A stretch of 64,000 nt of DNA. Source: Flavobacteriaceae bacterium. Lineage in GTDB: Bacteria; Bacteroidota; Bacteroidia; Flavobacteriales; Flavobacteriaceae. The stretch covers positions 3,228-67,227 of the forward strand of contig QXZA01000026.1 of assembly GCA_009886625.1 (NCBI GenBank), read 5' to 3'. How positions within the stretch are numbered: position 1 is the stretch's first letter; the number at the start of each line of letters is the position of its first letter. The notes beneath the pieces are model-generated. The model ran no database searches. It saw only the letters and a list, made by a program, of their open reading frames with translations, and was not told the DNA's origin. This document shows positions 54,225 through 62,545 of this stretch, in pieces. The position numbers were made by a program, and so were the translations under genes.

Positions 54225-55409
54225 ATGAACAAGGGACGTGTAATTGTTGGACTTTCTGGAGGTGTTGACTCCAGCGTAGCCGCTTATCTTTTGAAAGAGG
54301 AAGGTTACGAAGTTATTGGCTTGTTCATGAAGAACTGGCATGATGAGTCAGTTACCTTGTCTGATGAATGTCCCTGGCTAGAAGATAATAATGATGCAAT
54401 GCTGGTTGCGGAAAAATTAGAGATTCCTTTTCAGACTGTCGATTTAAGTAAAGAATACAAAGAGCGTATAGTTGACTATATGTTTGATGAATATTCTAAG
54501 GGACGTACCCCCAATCCAGACGTATTGTGTAATCGAGAAATTAAATTTGATGTGTTTTTAGAGATTGCTTTGTCTTTAGGAGCCGATTATGTAGCCACGG
54601 GTCATTATTGTCAAAAAAGTAGCTTTGCGACTTCCACAGAAATAGAGACCTATCAACTCAAAGCAGGAGCTGACAAGAATAAAGATCAGTCGTATTTTTT
54701 ATGTCAGCTAACCCAACAACAGCTTTCTCGTGTTTTATTTCCTATTGGACATTTGCAAAAAGATGAGGTTAGAAAAGTTGCCTTGAAGCAGCATTTGGTT
54801 ACTGCAGAAAAAAAAGATTCTCAAGGCCTTTGTTTTATAGGAAAAGTAAGATTACCCGATTTTCTTCAACAACAATTAAAACCTAAGACGGGTACCATTA
54901 TCGAAATTCCAAGTGATTTACCGATTTATTCAACTTCAGTATCTTCTGAAAATGATTTGGAATATCTTTCCAAAAAAATACGTTACCAGCCCTCAGATGG
55001 GCTGATTGTAGGGGAACACAATGGAGCTCATTTTTATACGATCGGGCAGCGAAAAGGACTTGGCATAGGAGGTAATGTAGAGCCTTTGTTTGTGATTGAT
55101 ACTGATGTGGACGACAACACCATCTATGTGGGACAAGGAAAAGCTCATCCTGGATTATTTCGCTACGCCTTACAAGTGGCCAAGGATTATATCCACTGGG
55201 TTCGGGGAGATTTTGCTTTAAACCAAGGAGAAACAATGAAGGTCAATGCTCGAATTCGATACAGACAAGCATTGCAGGAAGCAACCCTCTATCAAACGGA
55301 AGAAAACTTATACGTTTCCTTTGAAACACCCCAATCTGCAATCACTTCTGGACAGTTTGTGGCTTGGTATAAGGGAGAAGAACTTCTTGGTTCTGGAGTT
55401 ATCTCTTAA
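54225..55409 (+). CDS. mnmA: tRNA-specific 2-thiouridylase MnmA
   Basis: A 394-aa enzyme that thiolates U34 of Lys, Glu and Gln tRNAs. The PP-loop is G-L-S-G-G-V-D-S-S (about 8-16). The catalytic cysteines lie in [10 protein letters not shown] (about 103-112) and G-L-C-F-I-G (about 205-210). Other family motifs are A-T-G-H-Y and [10 protein letters not shown]. It is somewhat longer than E. coli MnmA. It is convergent with the YyaL-like gene, with a 2-bp gap. Confidence 0.96.
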
Positions 55410-55411
55410 TT

Positions 55412-57523
55412 CTAGTTTTCCCAACTTTCTATTTGTTCTATTGCCTCTTTAACACTTTTAACAGGTCGTAAACAGACTTTATTTTGACAAACATAGATAT
55501 AGGTTTCCCCTTCAAAAAACCGATCTTTTAACAAAGGTAAATCACTTTCAGTAGTTGAAATTTGAAAGAGTACATTAGGGTAATATTCTTTTTGGAATGC
55601 GATGGTTTTACTTTCAGCTTCAGGACCTACAATTACCACTTCATAATGAGGATAGGCTTTCTTTAGAAGTAGTTGCCCCCATTGAGCATAATCACTACTT
55701 CTTCCTCGGGAAAAATAGGGGAGAACCCCTTGAAGCATCTTCTCGGCTTTTTTTGAATAGTTTTCTTTTCCAGTCCATTGTCCAAGAGTCCATAAGTTTT
55801 CAGCCATGACTGCATTAGCAGAAGGGATGACGTTGTCATCTACTCCCACAATTGTTGCAAAAAGGGTAGGGTCTTTGGTAAAGGTGAAAAAGGGGGAGGC
55901 CTCATCTTTATATTCTCTTAATACACTTTCAGTAAACGATAGTGCATCGTTTAAAAAAGTATCCTTACCCGAAGTTTTATAAAGTGTAATTGCCGCCTGT
56001 GTCATAAAAGCACAATCCTCTAGAAAACCTTTTATTTTGGGTTTTCCTTCCTGAAAAGTGTGGAAGAATTGTTCCTTTTTGAAGCAGTTTTCTTTTAAAA
56101 AGGAATAAGTGCGTTTAGCTTCTTTCAAAAATTGAGAATCACCAAAAGCTTCATAGGCATGAGCGAGTCCTATTATTAACAAAGCATTCCACGAAGTAAT
56201 TATTTTAGTATCTATTAGTGGAAATTCGCGTTGTAGCATTTCTTTTTGAAGCCTCGAAATCCAAATTTTTGCCTTTGCCTCCAATGTTTCCTTATCTATT
56301 TTATGTTTTTCTAAAAAGCGGGAATCAATTGGCTTTAATTTTAAATTGTAAAAATGTTCTTCAAAAGGGGTGTTAAGATCAATATTAAAGTAAGCGATCA
56401 ACAAATCAAAATTCTTTTCAGTAACGGTTTTTAGACTCTCTTTAGTGAAGACATAATAGCGTCCTTCTCCTTCGTTATTGTCAGCATCAATAGCCGAATA
56501 ATAACCTCCGTTAGATGCTGCCATTCGTTCATTTAAAAACGAAAAAGTTTGATAGACCCGCTCTTTAAAAACCTCATTATTTGTTTGCTTGTAGGCATTT
56601 GCATACAGGCTAATTATCTGCGCATTGTCGTAAAGCATTTTCTCAAAATGAGGAATGTTCCAAAAGGGGTCAACAGTATAGCGATAAAACCCCCCTTCCA
56701 AGGGGTCAAATACACCACTGTGTGCAATGGTAAGCAGACTTTTTTCAAAGTAAGCGCTAATTTCTTTATTCTCAGTCAATTCTTGAAATTGTTGGATATA
56801 TTGAAATTTGACAGGAGTGATAAATTTTTGACTTCGTTTTTCTCCTCCAAATTCTCTATCCCAGTTGCGCATCCAATAGTGCATCTCATCTACTACGATC
56901 GAGGGAGAAATAAGTTTTGTTTCAGAGGATACTTCAAAAGTATTTACCTCTTGAATTCCTTTTTCTATTCGATCTGCAAAAACCATGAGTTGACTTTTGT
57001 CATTAGTGTAAAGTATTTGAACTTTTTCTAGAACTTCAAGCCATTGTTGTTTGGTATGGTAAGTTCCGCCATAAACTGGTCTCCCATCTGGAAGACAAAT
57101 GACATTGAGGGGCCAGCCTCCGCTACCTGTCATCATTTGAGTTGCGGTCATATAAATTGTATCAATTTCAGGATTTTCCTCACGATCCACTTTAATGCTG
57201 ATAAAGTTTTCATTCATACAATCCGCTACTTCCTGATCTTCAAAGGTTTCCTTTTCCATGACATGACACCAATGACAACTTGAATAGCCAATACTTACAA
57301 TAAGTAACTTTTCTTCAGGATTTTGATTTTTATAGACTTCATTATCCCAACGTTGCCAAAAAACTGGATTTTGTGCATGCTGTAATAGATAAGGACTTGA
57401 TTCCTGATCAAGTTTATTTGCCTTTATAGAATTTTCTTGAGTGCAGGAAAAAAAGATACTTAACATTAGTATAAAACAAAGTGTGTGTTTGGTAGGTAGA
57501 TTGAATATTGAAATGGGATACAT
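55412..57523 (-). CDS. YyaL/SPATA20-like thioredoxin-domain lipoprotein
   Basis: A 703-aa protein. An N-terminal lipobox (F-S-C, Cys27) is followed by a DUF255 thioredoxin-fold domain (about 35-195) with Y-S-S-C-H-W-C-H-V-M (about 79-88). A large six-hairpin glycosidase-like domain (about 250-600) has H-F-E-K-M-L-Y-D-N-A and S-W-N-A-L-L-I. Homologues in bacteria and animals keep C-H-W-C, but their activity is unclear. The lipid anchor, which would place it in the envelope, is typical of the Bacteroidetes form. Confidence 0.9.
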   Translation of the reverse strand: MYPISIFNLPTKHTLCFILMLSIFFSCTQENSIKANKLDQESSPYLLQHAQNPVFWQRWDNEVYKNQNPEEKLLIVSIGYSSCHWCHVMEKETFEDQEVADCMNENFISIKVDREENPEIDTIYMTATQMMTGSGGWPLNVICLPDGRPVYGGTYHTKQQWLEVLEKVQILYTNDKSQLMVFADRIEKGIQEVNTFEVSSETKLISPSIVVDEMHYWMRNWDREFGGEKRSQKFITPVKFQYIQQFQELTENKEISAYFEKSLLTIAHSGVFDPLEGGFYRYTVDPFWNIPHFEKMLYDNAQIISLYANAYKQTNNEVFKERVYQTFSFLNERMAASNGGYYSAIDADNNEGEGRYYVFTKESLKTVTEKNFDLLIAYFNIDLNTPFEEHFYNLKLKPIDSRFLEKHKIDKETLEAKAKIWISRLQKEMLQREFPLIDTKIITSWNALLIIGLAHAYEAFGDSQFLKEAKRTYSFLKENCFKKEQFFHTFQEGKPKIKGFLEDCAFMTQAAITLYKTSGKDTFLNDALSFTESVLREYKDEASPFFTFTKDPTLFATIVGVDDNVIPSANAVMAENLWTLGQWTGKENYSKKAEKMLQGVLPYFSRGRSSDYAQWGQLLLKKAYPHYEVVIVGPEAESKTIAFQKEYYPNVLFQISTTESDLPLLKDRFFEGETYIYVCQNKVCLRPVKSVKEAIEQIESWEN

Positions 57524-57717
57524 TTTGGCATTGTTTTATTGAATTTAATAAATGATGTAAATATCTTTAGGATTCTATGGAGGGTATTTCTTCTATTACT
57601 GAATCGTAAATACTCCCATAAATATAATTGATTCTTATCTTTAGGATGTTGTTTTGTTATTGTAATCTAAGAAAAGCCCCAAATCATGACTTTAGTTGTA
57701 AAGTGCAGAAATATTGT

Positions 57718-58089
57718 CTATCTCTCCTTTTTTTGCGTTCCATATCAAGTCACAACAATTTCTTCAAGACCTTGAACATCTTCTAGCATTTGAATATCCA
57801 AAGTATCGTATTGAAGATTTGATTATTCCTGTGTCAAAAAACCAAGATAGGAAAAGACTATAGTAGCATTTTCATTTGCAACTGAAATGGTATAAGCGCC
57901 GTCAAAGTCAGTAACAGTTCCATTAGAGGTGCCTTTTTCAATAATACTTACTCCAGGTGAGGAACCAGATTCATCTGATACAATTCCAGAAATAGTTTTT
58001 TGAGCATTAGCTTGTAAACAAAAAATTAATAGACTCAATAATAGATAAGTGAATCTATTCCCACAGAAAAGATTAATAGGTAATTCCAT
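57718..58089 (-). pseudogene. Decayed SusC-type TonB-dependent receptor (N-terminal fragment)
   Basis: The ATG at 58089 opens a signal peptide (ending A-N-A-Q) and a carboxypeptidase-regulatory-like domain with the SusC hallmarks G-V-S-I-I-E-K-G-T-S-N-G-T-V-T-D and F-S-Y-L-G-F. The frame stops at TAA (57825-57823) after 88 codons. Read on in the same frame, it continues with L-E-D-V-Q-G-L-E-E-I-V-V-T, a TGA (57747-57745) where SusC proteins have Gly, then Y-G-T-Q-K-K-E-R and a TAG (57720-57718). The rest of the receptor, some 900 residues, is absent. Two nonsense mutations plus a deletion make this a pseudogene. Confidence 0.88.
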
Positions 58090-58349
58090 TTTAGATTTGG
58101 GTTAAATTCTGTTAAATACATAAAATATACACCAATCACCCCTTTTTTTTGCTATAAATATAATTAAATGTTAATATGTATATATAATATAAATAGTTAA
58201 TAATTATATCATCTTTTTTAAATTGTAAAAGTTTAGGTTTTTATAATTTAAATTGAATTTTTAAAGTATATAGCGTCTTAGATTAAATAGAATTAAAGTT
58301 TTGAAACCCTTCATTTCTATGAATATGTTTAAAAATCTTAAATTAGTGT
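58090..58349. other. AT-rich gap between the receptor remnant and the SUMF1-like gene
   Basis: 260 bp of extremely AT-rich DNA separating divergent genes. I see no open frame of note and no perfect -7 box near 58350. An ATG at 58319 opens a different, short frame with no recognisable product. Confidence 0.4.
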
Positions 58350-59324
58350 ATGGTGCCTTCAAGGTTTGTTTTATATCTCACTTTAGTTGTGCTTTTTCAA
58401 GGGATGTATTCTTTGAAGGGGCAGGAATCTTATGAAGAGAAACTTAATGGTGTAGATCACAACATCTCCATGGTTTTTATTGAAGGGGGTAGCTTTATTA
58501 TGGGGAGTCCTAAAATTCAGAAAGGTCATTTTGGAGACGAGGGACCACAACATGAAGTTAATGTTTCTCCTTTTTGGATGAGTAAGGTAGAAATCACTTG
58601 GGATTTATATTCGCTATTTGTAAGTAGAGAATGGGATCAATATCAGGTAGATAAAAGTGTTGATAGCGAGGTTTCCATTGATGTAGATGCAGTTTCAGGA
58701 GCAACAACTCCCTATGTGGAAATGAGTTTTGGAATGGGTATTGATAACTATCCAGCAATTTGTATGACGCAACTTGCAGCAATAAAATTTTGTGAATGGC
58801 TCTCAGCGATGACAGGTCATTTTTATCGTTTGCCAACAGAAGCGGAATGGGAATATGCTGCAAGAGCGGGAAGTTCTTCAGCCTATTCATTTGGGGATAA
58901 TATAAATGTATTAGGCGAGTATGCTTGGTTTGAGGGAAATAGCAATGAAAAATATCAAAAGGTAGGTACAAAGAAACCGAATGCCTGGGGTTTAAATGAT
59001 ATGCATGGAAATGTTGCTGAATGGACTTTGGATCAATATGTGCCTTCGGCTTATTCGAAGCGAAAAAAGGGAATTGAAAACCCACAGGAGGTTGGGGATA
59101 AAGTTTATCCTAAAGTAGTGCGAGGAGGTTCGTGGATGGATGCACCAAGTCGATTACGATCAGCTGCACGCCGCCCTTCATCTAAAAATTGGAAAAAGCG
59201 TGATCCTCAAATTCCAAAAAGTAAATGGTGGCACACTGATGCCCCCTTTGTGGGCTTCAGAATAGTAAGGCCAAAGCAAATTCCTTCTGAGGGAGATCAA
59301 AAAAAATATTGGAATTACAAATAA
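58350..59324 (+). CDS. SUMF1/FGE-fold protein, exported
   Basis: A 324-aa formylglycine-generating-enzyme-fold protein with a signal peptide (about 1-24, ending L-K-G-Q). Fold markers are M-V-F-I-E-G-G-S-F-I-M-G-S (about 40-52), R-L-P-T-E-A-E-W-E-Y-A-A-R (about 158-170), G-N-V-A-E-W, and V-R-G-G-S-W. The two active-site cysteines of true FGE, expected just after G-G-S, are missing (M-D-A-P-S-R-L-R follows), so sulfatase activation is unlikely. It is followed after 20 bp by the oxidoreductase gene. Confidence 0.85.
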   Translation: MVPSRFVLYLTLVVLFQGMYSLKGQESYEEKLNGVDHNISMVFIEGGSFIMGSPKIQKGHFGDEGPQHEVNVSPFWMSKVEITWDLYSLFVSREWDQYQVDKSVDSEVSIDVDAVSGATTPYVEMSFGMGIDNYPAICMTQLAAIKFCEWLSAMTGHFYRLPTEAEWEYAARAGSSSAYSFGDNINVLGEYAWFEGNSNEKYQKVGTKKPNAWGLNDMHGNVAEWTLDQYVPSAYSKRKKGIENPQEVGDKVYPKVVRGGSWMDAPSRLRSAARRPSSKNWKKRDPQIPKSKWWHTDAPFVGFRIVRPKQIPSEGDQKKYWNYK

Positions 59325-59344
59325 ATTAACTAAAACAACAAAAA

Positions 59345-60682
59345 ATGACAAAAAAGAAGAATATCAACCAAAACGAGGGAGAATCTAGACGCTCTTTTGT
59401 TCAGAAAACTGCACTTGCGACTAGTGTAATTTTAACAATGCCGCTTGGTGTTGAAAGCATGGCAAATGTCCAAGGCGATAAAAAATTAAAACTTGCTCTT
59501 GTGGGTTGTGGCGGAAGAGGTTCTGGAGCTACTGTTCAAGCTTTGACTGCTGACGAAAATGTTGAGTTAGTTGCTATGGCCGATGCATTTGGTGATCGAA
59601 TTGAAAGAAGCTTAAAAGGAATTCAAGAACATTTTGATGGTGAAAAGAAAATCAATGTCAAAGAGAAGAATCGCTTTGTTGGTTTTGATGCCTATAAAAA
59701 AGCAATTGATCTTGCAGATGTGGTTATTTTGACCACCCCACCTGGATTTAGACCTTACCATTTTGAATATGCTATTAATAATGATAAGCATGTGTTTATG
59801 GAAAAGCCAGTGGCTACTGATCCTGTAGGAATACGAAAGGTTTTAGAAATGGCTAAAATTGCTAAATCAAAGAAGCTAAATGTAGTAGTGGGTTTACAAA
59901 GACATTATCAATCTAAGTATATAGATCTAAAGCAAAGAGTTGATGCTGGAGCTATTGGAAAAATTAGAAGTGGACAAGTGTATTGGAACGATGCAGGTGT
60001 TTGGGTTAAAAAGCGAAAACCGGGACAATCTGAATTGGAGTATCAAATGCGAAACTGGTATTACTTCAATTGGTTGTGTGGTGATCATATCTTAGAACAG
60101 CATATCCATAATATTGATGTAGCTAATTGGTTTGTAGGAGAATATCCAGAATCAGCTCAAGGAATGGGTGGGCGTCAAGTGCGAAACGGTTTGGATCACG
60201 GAGAAATTTTCGATCACCATTTTGTTGAATTTACCTATCCTAGTGGAGCTGTAATTTCGAGTCAATGTAGACATATTCCCGGAACCATGAGTAGAGTAGA
60301 TGAGGTTTTTCAAGGAACTAAGGGAAGTTTAGAGATAGGAAAAGGCGAGATAACTGATATAGAAGGAGCTACTCAATATAAATATCCTAAGAAATGGGGA
60401 GAAGATGCAAACCCCTACCAAGTTGAGCATGATAAGTTATTTGCTTCTATAAGAAGTGGAGGTGTAATAGCTGATGCTGAGAACGGTGCAAAAAGTACCT
60501 TGTCTGCTATTTTAGGAAGAATGGCAACTTATACCGGTAAAAACATCACTTTTGAAGAAGCTCTAAATTCGCAACTACATTTGATGCCAGAAACCTTTAC
60601 ATGGGAGAGTACACCCCCTACTTTACCAGATGAAAATGGATTATATCCCATTCCAACCCCAGGAAAAACAAAATTTATATAA
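59345..60682 (+). CDS. Gfo/Idh/MocA family oxidoreductase with Tat signal
   Basis: A 445-aa NAD(P)-dependent sugar oxidoreductase. The N-terminus carries a twin-arginine signal (S-R-R-S-F-V-Q-K and a hydrophobic stretch to about 38). The Rossmann motif is A-L-V-G-C-G-G-R-G-S-G (about 52-62), and E-K-P-V-A-T-D (about 152-158) is the family's conserved E-K-P. Another conserved stretch is E-Q-H-I-H-N-I-D-V. The Tat signal implies that it folds with cofactor before export. The substrate is unknown. A single base separates it from the isomerase gene. Confidence 0.9.
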   Translation: MTKKKNINQNEGESRRSFVQKTALATSVILTMPLGVESMANVQGDKKLKLALVGCGGRGSGATVQALTADENVELVAMADAFGDRIERSLKGIQEHFDGEKKINVKEKNRFVGFDAYKKAIDLADVVILTTPPGFRPYHFEYAINNDKHVFMEKPVATDPVGIRKVLEMAKIAKSKKLNVVVGLQRHYQSKYIDLKQRVDAGAIGKIRSGQVYWNDAGVWVKKRKPGQSELEYQMRNWYYFNWLCGDHILEQHIHNIDVANWFVGEYPESAQGMGGRQVRNGLDHGEIFDHHFVEFTYPSGAVISSQCRHIPGTMSRVDEVFQGTKGSLEIGKGEITDIEGATQYKYPKKWGEDANPYQVEHDKLFASIRSGGVIADAENGAKSTLSAILGRMATYTGKNITFEEALNSQLHLMPETFTWESTPPTLPDENGLYPIPTPGKTKFI

Positions 60683-60683
60683 T

Positions 60684-61601
60684 ATGAATAGAAGAAATTT
60701 CACTCAGTTGGCCGGAGCATCTGGCCTTGGACTTTTTGCAGGTGCTACTACTTTTGCAAGTACAAAAAACACACAATTGAAACATGTTTTTAACTTGCCG
60801 TATGCCCCGCATTTAGGAATGTTTAAACATCACGCTGGAAAAGATCCCATTGATCAGTTAAATTTTATGGCAGACCAAGGGTTTATGGCCTTTGAAGATA
60901 ATGAAATGCGGAACAGAGAAGTCTCTTTACAGCAGAAAATGGCTGCTACTATGCAGAAGAGAGGGATTCGAATGGGAGTGTTTGTCGCCCATAAAATTTA
61001 TTGGAGAAAACCTAACTTAGCTAGTGGAGACCAAGCACTTCGAAAGGAATTTTTGAATTACATTAAAGAAGCAATTCCTGTTGCTAAACGTGTCAACGCA
61101 AAATGGATGACCGTTGTACCAGGACATTTGGATTTAAGCCAAAATATGGCATATCAAAGAGCTCATGTGGTCGAAAGCCTCAAACAGGCTTCGACACTTT
61201 TAGAGCCCCACGGAATTGTGATGGTTTTGGAGCCATTAAACTTTAGGAACCATCCAGGACTTTTCTTGTCTGAAAGTCCACAGGCCTATGAAATTTGTAA
61301 AGCAGTAGATTCTCCTTCTTGTAAAATTTTATTTGACATTTACCATCAGCAAATTCAAGAAGGAAATTTGATTCCAAATATTGAAAAATGTTGGGAAGAG
61401 ATTGGTTACTTCCAAATAGGAGATAATCCGGGGAGAAAAGAACCCACAACTGGGGAGATTAATTACACCAATGTTTTTAAATACATACATAGTAGAGGTT
61501 TTGATGGAATTTTAGGAATGGAGCACGGGAACAGTCGTCCAGACAAGGAAGGAGAACAGGCGGTAATTGATGCTTATAAAAAGGTGGATCAATTTATATG
61601 A
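60684..61601 (+). CDS. Hydroxypyruvate isomerase-like TIM-barrel protein with Tat signal
   Basis: A 305-aa protein of the xylose isomerase-like/AP-endonuclease 2 superfamily. The N-terminal M-N-R-R-N-F-T-Q-L plus a hydrophobic stretch (about 9-26) is a second Tat-type signal. Metal and catalytic residues fit E-P-L-N (about 200-203), D-I-Y-H (about 233-236), Q-I-G-D-N-P-G-R (about 261-268) and G-M-E-H. The closest recognisable family is hydroxypyruvate isomerase; other sugar epimerases are possible. I chose the ATG at 60684. The stop overlaps the next ATG by 4 bp (61598-61601). Confidence 0.87.
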   Translation: MNRRNFTQLAGASGLGLFAGATTFASTKNTQLKHVFNLPYAPHLGMFKHHAGKDPIDQLNFMADQGFMAFEDNEMRNREVSLQQKMAATMQKRGIRMGVFVAHKIYWRKPNLASGDQALRKEFLNYIKEAIPVAKRVNAKWMTVVPGHLDLSQNMAYQRAHVVESLKQASTLLEPHGIVMVLEPLNFRNHPGLFLSESPQAYEICKAVDSPSCKILFDIYHQQIQEGNLIPNIEKCWEEIGYFQIGDNPGRKEPTTGEINYTNVFKYIHSRGFDGILGMEHGNSRPDKEGEQAVIDAYKKVDQFI

Positions 61602-62545
61602 ATGAAAACAAAATAAGCCAGCTTTTTGGGATTCAGTATCCTATTATACAAGCTGGAATGGTTTGGGCTAGTGGATGGCGTTTAGCTTCTGCAGTTTCAA
61701 ATGCAGGAGGCTTAGGTCTAATTGGAGCAGGATCTATGTATCCAGAGATTTTAAGAGAGCACATACAAAAATGTAAAAAAGCGACACCACACCCCTTTGG
61801 GGTAAATGTTCCTTTATTGTATCCCGACATAGATCAATTGATGGAAGTAATAGTGACGGAAAAAGTTCCCATTGTGTTCAGTGCAGCGGGTAATCCAAAA
61901 CTTTGGACAGACTATTTGAAATTGCATGGCTGTACTGTAGTTCATGTTGTGAGCTCAGTAAAATTTGCCTTAAAAGCACAAGAGAGTGGAGTAGATGCTG
62001 TTGTGGCTGAGGGTTTTGAAGCAGGAGGACATAATGGAAGAGAGGAAACCACCACCTTAACTCTAATTCCTATTGTTAAAAAAGCAATACATATCCCACT
62101 TATTGCTGCGGGAGGGATTGGCTCTGGTCCTGCAATGCTAGCTGCGATGGCTTTGGGTGCTGATGCTGTACAAGTGGGCTCCCGCTTTGTAGCTACACAT
62201 GAAGCATCTTCTCATATCAATTTCAAAGAGGAGGTGTTGAAGGCGGGTCAAGGAGCCACGGTGTTAACTTTGAAAGAATTGACCCCTGTACGAATGATGA
62301 AAAATTCGTTTTATCAAAAAATAAATAACTTATATAAGGCTGGAGCCACGGTTGAGCAATTACAGGAAACGCTTGGGAGAGGAAGAGCGAAAAAAGGAAT
62401 GTTTGAAGGAGACCTTGTTGAAGGAGAATTAGAAATTGGTCAAGTCGCAGCTCAAATTGAAAAGATCATTCCAGCGGAAGCAGTAGTGAAAGAATTTATT
62501 GAGACGTATAATTCTACTTTAAATTCTCTCCCTAAAATAGATTAA
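61598..62545 (+). CDS. Nitronate monooxygenase / FabK-like flavoenzyme
   Basis: A 315-aa FMN-dependent TIM-barrel protein. Family motifs are Y-P-I-I-Q-A-G-M (about 14-21), S-N-A-G-G-L-G (about 35-41), A-E-G-F-E-A-G-G-H (about 139-147), A-A-G-G-I-G-S-G (about 170-177) and A-D-A-V-Q-V-G-S-R-F. It may oxidise alkyl nitronates or act as an enoyl reductase; sequence alone does not separate these. It is translationally coupled to the isomerase gene (ATGA overlap) but has no signal peptide. The stop shares TTAA with convergent lysA. Confidence 0.88.
   Translation: MNENKISQLFGIQYPIIQAGMVWASGWRLASAVSNAGGLGLIGAGSMYPEILREHIQKCKKATPHPFGVNVPLLYPDIDQLMEVIVTEKVPIVFSAAGNPKLWTDYLKLHGCTVVHVVSSVKFALKAQESGVDAVVAEGFEAGGHNGREETTTLTLIPIVKKAIHIPLIAAGGIGSGPAMLAAMALGADAVQVGSRFVATHEASSHINFKEEVLKAGQGATVLTLKELTPVRMMKNSFYQKINNLYKAGATVEQLQETLGRGRAKKGMFEGDLVEGELEIGQVAAQIEKIIPAEAVVKEFIETYNSTLNSLPKID

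Follow-up and report, generated by a model that had tools for sequence, protein, structure and literature searches.

The window analysed here is a stretch of 64,000 nucleotides (G000:C19:3228-67227) from a draft genome, G000, of 1.91 Mb in 30 contigs, 91.65% complete. Between an mnmA-like gene and a SUMF1-like gene it carries the 5′ end of a gene for a SusC-type receptor, together with an intact DUF255 gene. The features of the site are as follows.

54225..55409, plus strand: mnmA-like gene, one boundary of the site (synteny)
55412..57523, minus strand: intact DUF255/Thioredox_DsbH gene, 703 amino acids, last gene of the putative ancestral operon (Pfam, synteny)
57524..57726, minus strand: stretch of unrecognised sequence, about 200 bp, between the end of susC homology and DUF255; probable deletion junction on the susC side
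57718..57720, minus strand: third stop, TAG, located at the deletion junction or past it, not demonstrably susC (translation, blastx/blastn)
57727..58089, minus strand: susC receptor gene, 5′ remnant, with ATG at 58089, an N-terminus resembling a signal peptide, the greater part of a CarboxypepD_reg-like domain and the motif EEIVVT-x-YGTQ
57745..57747, minus strand: TGA, the second in-frame stop, aligned with the invariant Gly of VVTGYGTQ (translation, alignment)
57823..57825, minus strand: first in-frame stop, TAA, codon 89 (translation)
58090..58349, minus strand: susC upstream/leader region, divergent from SUMF1, its ATG-proximal part visibly alike in the sister genome G047
58350..59324, plus strand: SUMF1-like gene, the other boundary, outside the operon (profile match, synteny)

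Read in a single frame from 58089, the minus strand translates as MELPINLF...YLGFLTQE*SNLQYDTLDIQMLEDVQGLEEIVVT*YGTQKKER*. A first-pass annotation had assigned this sequence to a SusC-type receptor and the assignment is well founded. The remnant matches NCBIfam TIGR04056 (SusC/RagA; E 1.2e-28, model positions 1-92 of 981) and Pfam CarbopepD_reg_2 (E 5.5e-16, residues 33-113), and is 53-61% identical to full-length receptors (about 1050-1090 amino acids) from genomes of the same genus. With the TIGR04056 receptors it shares, over those model positions, the signal-peptide-like start and an N-terminal CarboxypepD_reg-like extension, followed by the TonB-box-like segment EEIVVTGYGTQ. Unlike them, it represents only about the first tenth of a receptor gene and bears two stops. 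The plug domain and TonB-dependent β-barrel (about 1000 amino acids) of a working SusC/RagA receptor, some 90% of the protein, have been deleted. Lacking plug, barrel and SusD, the remnant would be incapable of a receptor role, judging from the architecture of the family.

The TAA and the TGA are indeed in frame where they had been reported, although both, like the junction near 57727, are read from one draft assembly. The TGA had been placed at the Gly of T-G-Y-G-T-Q, and alignment with intact SusC relatives agrees: VVTGYGTQ is invariant across 16 relatives and the TGA falls in its Gly column. Two other statements need correction. The N-terminal domain was described as intact up to the TAA, but the Pfam domain match runs to residue 113, past codon 89. 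A third nonsense codon was also described; it is present in frame at 57720-57718, but susC homology stops near 57727, at residue ~121, in blastx and blastn comparisons with the loci of relatives. Because this TAG lies just past the end of homology, it is not counted as evidence of susC decay.

The rest of the receptor and its SusD partner had been declared gone, and the present searches agree. There is no susD at the window site, and the rest of G000 gives only a 33% partial match (E 6e-4). No SusC ortholog was detected elsewhere in G000 at E<=1e-150, about 8% of the genome being possibly missing from the assembly; the other SusC paralogues in G000 show at most 43% amino acid identity to the remnant. 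The DUF255 gene is the only intact survivor of the lost operon in the window, a point that the first-pass annotation missed. The promoter motif TAnnTTTG has no match upstream of the remnant in its own direction and none before DUF255. For the interval 57524-57726, no source above chance was found in the operons of relatives or in the whole genome by blastn, blastx and local alignment with shuffles, and this leaves the 3′ edge of the deletion unmapped. The same interval holds an exact 12-bp direct repeat, TATCTTTAGGAT, at 57562 and 57636.

The intact operon in related genomes

The comparison set comprised 37 further genomes of the window's genus, and the related records are drafts of uncultured Flavobacteriaceae, mostly metagenome-assembled. 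Mapping of the genes on both sides defines one site between mnmA and SUMF1 in the relatives. The earlier proposal that they be searched for an intact susC/susD pair proved fruitful, since such a pair is present exactly here in G024 and at least eight others; the intact operon is found in G024, G041, G051, G046, G016, G021, G003, G011 and G012. It is divergent from SUMF1 and begins with susC (~1050 amino acids), susD (~625) and an FG-GAP/ASPIC-UnbV gene (~1100), followed by further genes, an NHL-repeat protein and, last, DUF255. In most genomes the further genes are a ~125-aa gene and a ~132-aa gene on the opposite strand; those of G012 encode a vanadium-chloroperoxidase/PAP2-like protein and another ASPIC protein. 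mnmA comes after DUF255 in G024, G041, G051, G016, G021 and G012, and one extra gene lies between SUMF1 and susC in G046 and G021. The same layout recurs in G043 and G023, each time split over two contigs. The flanks of G024 are among the closest to those of the window (Gfo/Idh 91%, mnmA 82%, DUF255 76%). From the susC start to the DUF255 start there are 10.5 kb in G024 versus 566 bp in the window, a net loss of about 9.9 kb.

Some loci carry additional genes. LytTR-domain genes (~515-527 amino acids) lie between SUMF1 and susC in L155 (13551-15095) and L147 (2929-4512) and may regulate the operon. In L160 (13297-14871) and L011 (920-2620) this position is occupied by a similarly sized gene. 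The vanadium chloroperoxidase/PAP2-like gene (L055, G012:C27, 5912-7264) lies within one subtype of the SusCD operon, that of G012 and G013; close homologs occur in G002 and G006. No published account of a SusCD operon with ASPIC/UnbV or FG-GAP was found in the open-access literature searched.

The first-pass annotation took the remnant to mark the loss of a polysaccharide-uptake locus, of which the "sugar-type enzymes" at 58350-62545 would be the leftover. Such a reading bears on the substrate and does not conflict with the remnant being a pseudogene. SusCD pairs are often located in polysaccharide utilization loci (PMC4829426), and Gfo/Idh and isomerase-like genes do adjoin the site. However, the definition of a polysaccharide utilization locus requires one or more CAZyme genes located together with a susCD pair (PMC4829426, PMC7440613), and Pfam scans of the intact operons of G024 and G012 detected no carbohydrate-active enzyme, whether glycoside hydrolase, lyase, esterase or sulfatase. 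By this measure they fall outside the definition. In addition, the genes at 58350-62545, which are SUMF1-like, Gfo/Idh-like, TIM-barrel isomerase-like and nitronate monooxygenase (NMO)/FabK-like, are divergent from the operon. Their order is kept in G010, G018, G040 and G017, which have no operon, and in G001, where the operon is elsewhere, so they are not operon leftovers. Relatives of SusCD are not confined to glycans, RagAB being implicated in protein uptake (PMC11817032). Thus, with no CAZyme in the operon, a polysaccharide-uptake locus is unproven, and its loss seems an improbable description of what happened here. In a marine clade of Flavobacteriaceae, most annotated loci likewise have only susC/D genes and no CAZyme genes (PMC7440613). 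The intact G024-type operon resembles these in being a susCD pair in which no CAZyme was found, but differs in that FG-GAP/ASPIC-UnbV, NHL and DUF255 genes accompany the pair; nearly all of this is deleted in the window.

Altered states of the site and the age of the decay

In a tree of flanking proteins, G047 is sister to G007 and is grouped with G000 and G024, the branching order of G000, G024 and the G007-G047 pair being weakly supported (56). G047 has a collapsed form of the same operon at the same site (L143, G047:C127, 2991-4373, plus strand), with an N-terminus 86% identical to the remnant in the mature region. Its breakpoints differ from those of the window: SusC 13-220 is fused in frame to SusD 376-627 in an open frame of 460 amino acids, and downstream ASPIC 17-68 lies beside a broken DUF255 (389-557 and 671-712). 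Deletion produced this fusion, to which SusC contributes residues 1 to ~205 and SusD its C-terminal ~250 residues.

Other genomes show further states. G007 lacks susC at the site; its DUF255 is intact and lies next to SUMF1, and its copy of the operon's 132-aa gene is truncated. In G005 this gene alone is left, in decayed form. DUF255 adjoins SUMF1 in G014, where the receptor is absent. In G010, G018, G017, G040 and G001, mnmA abuts SUMF1 with no operon between; G040 has a SusC homolog elsewhere in its genome. Because the breakpoints differ among sister lineages, several independent losses appear probable.

In G001 the operon (susCD-ASPIC) lies ~280 kb from the usual, empty site (L010, G001:C2:317 kb; L053, G001:C2:598 kb), which suggests that it is able to move as a unit. 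At L013 (G013:C83, 7233-9474) a DUF255 gene broken into two frames and a scrap of a SusD C-terminus separate SUMF1 from an intact susCD operon of the other type, the one bearing vanadium peroxidase. It looks as if one operon type has been replaced by the other at the same site.

The first-pass annotation held that the decay is recent, and comparison with G047 points the same way. The remnant and G047 are 85-86% identical in amino acids over the mature region, with differences at codon positions of 9/8/37. dN is 0.089 and dS 1.13, for a dN/dS near 0.08, although dS is close to saturation and hence allows rough dating only. The functional flanking genes of the same genome pair give comparable dN values, 0.065 for Gfo/Idh and 0.178 for SUMF1. 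The low dN/dS and the codon-position pattern indicate protein-level constraint for nearly all of the time since G000 and G047 split. Conservation extends past the first stop, and the signature of purifying selection spans both stops; the decay is therefore recent on the scale of that split.

Origin of the remnant

Compared with the intact orthologs found at this site, the remnant carries disabling changes of the kind that mark a pseudogene. We consider it very probable, on the basis of these sequence comparisons, that it is a true and recently formed pseudogene left by deletion of a SusC/SusD-type operon, a case of ordinary gene decay. On this reading an ancestor had, between SUMF1 and mnmA, an outer-membrane uptake operon of this type (susC, susD, FG-GAP/ASPIC-UnbV, small genes, NHL β-propeller, DUF255). 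Synteny shows that one or more deletions took about 10 kb, starting at susC codon ~121 and reaching almost to DUF255, which was left intact. The two in-frame stops in the 5′ end of susC may have arisen before or after this event. The same operon has been lost in several sister lineages at different breakpoints, probably independently. Such repeated loss would fit an uptake system that is dispensable in genomes of ~2 Mb, the presumed ecological reason.

An assembly chimera or consensus error would explain the junction differently: the operon would be intact in the organism and the assembler would have attached the DUF255 side to the susC 5′ end. The draft state of G000 (30 contigs, 91.65% complete), the richness of receptor families in paralogues, which break assemblies, and the unexplained 200 bp at the junction are compatible with such an error. 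It would not account for two separate in-frame stops within otherwise clean sequence. The neighbouring genes between 47 and 64 kb are all open and have lengths like those in G007, which argues against a general sequence-error problem. No long tract is common to the remnant and any G000 paralogue (best 43% amino acid identity), the junction DNA is unique, and the sister G007 likewise has DUF255 next to SUMF1 and no receptor. An artefact of this sort is accordingly very unlikely.

It is even harder to credit that the 88-aa open frame (58089-57823) has been kept as a functional secreted mini-protein with a truncated CarboxypepD_reg-like domain. The frame is intact, has a signal-peptide-like N-terminus and shows the low dN/dS given above, but the first stop cuts the domain before its end and no relative in the 16-sequence alignment ends there. 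Since the sequence past this stop is still recognisably conserved, the stop is recent and not that of a long-maintained short protein. N-terminal SusC pieces serve in some Bacteroides as silent cassettes of recombinational, shufflon-type phase-variable systems; here this origin is largely refuted and next to negligible, as 57400-58400 contains no inverted repeats, the neighbours examined include no recombinase, and no receptor of G000 shares a near-identical tract with the remnant.

With pseudogene formation by operon deletion as the preferred reading, a wider proposal may be considered, though it is a speculative one that we regard as rather doubtful. It assumes that the CAZyme-less SusCD operon with FG-GAP/ASPIC-UnbV, NHL and DUF255 imports a non-glycan substrate and has been repeatedly and independently lost across one genus of small-genome marine flavobacteria. 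DUF255, having a role of its own, would sometimes be kept, and the former susC promoter may now drive it; the window would represent a freshly frozen step of the process.

The pseudogene itself is ordinary. It nevertheless offers a clear example of an outer-membrane uptake operon dying in a marine flavobacterium, and it flags a conserved SusCD operon without CAZymes. Since one and the same site is found intact, half-collapsed or empty in sister genomes, breakpoints, order of loss and the surviving gene can be compared among them.
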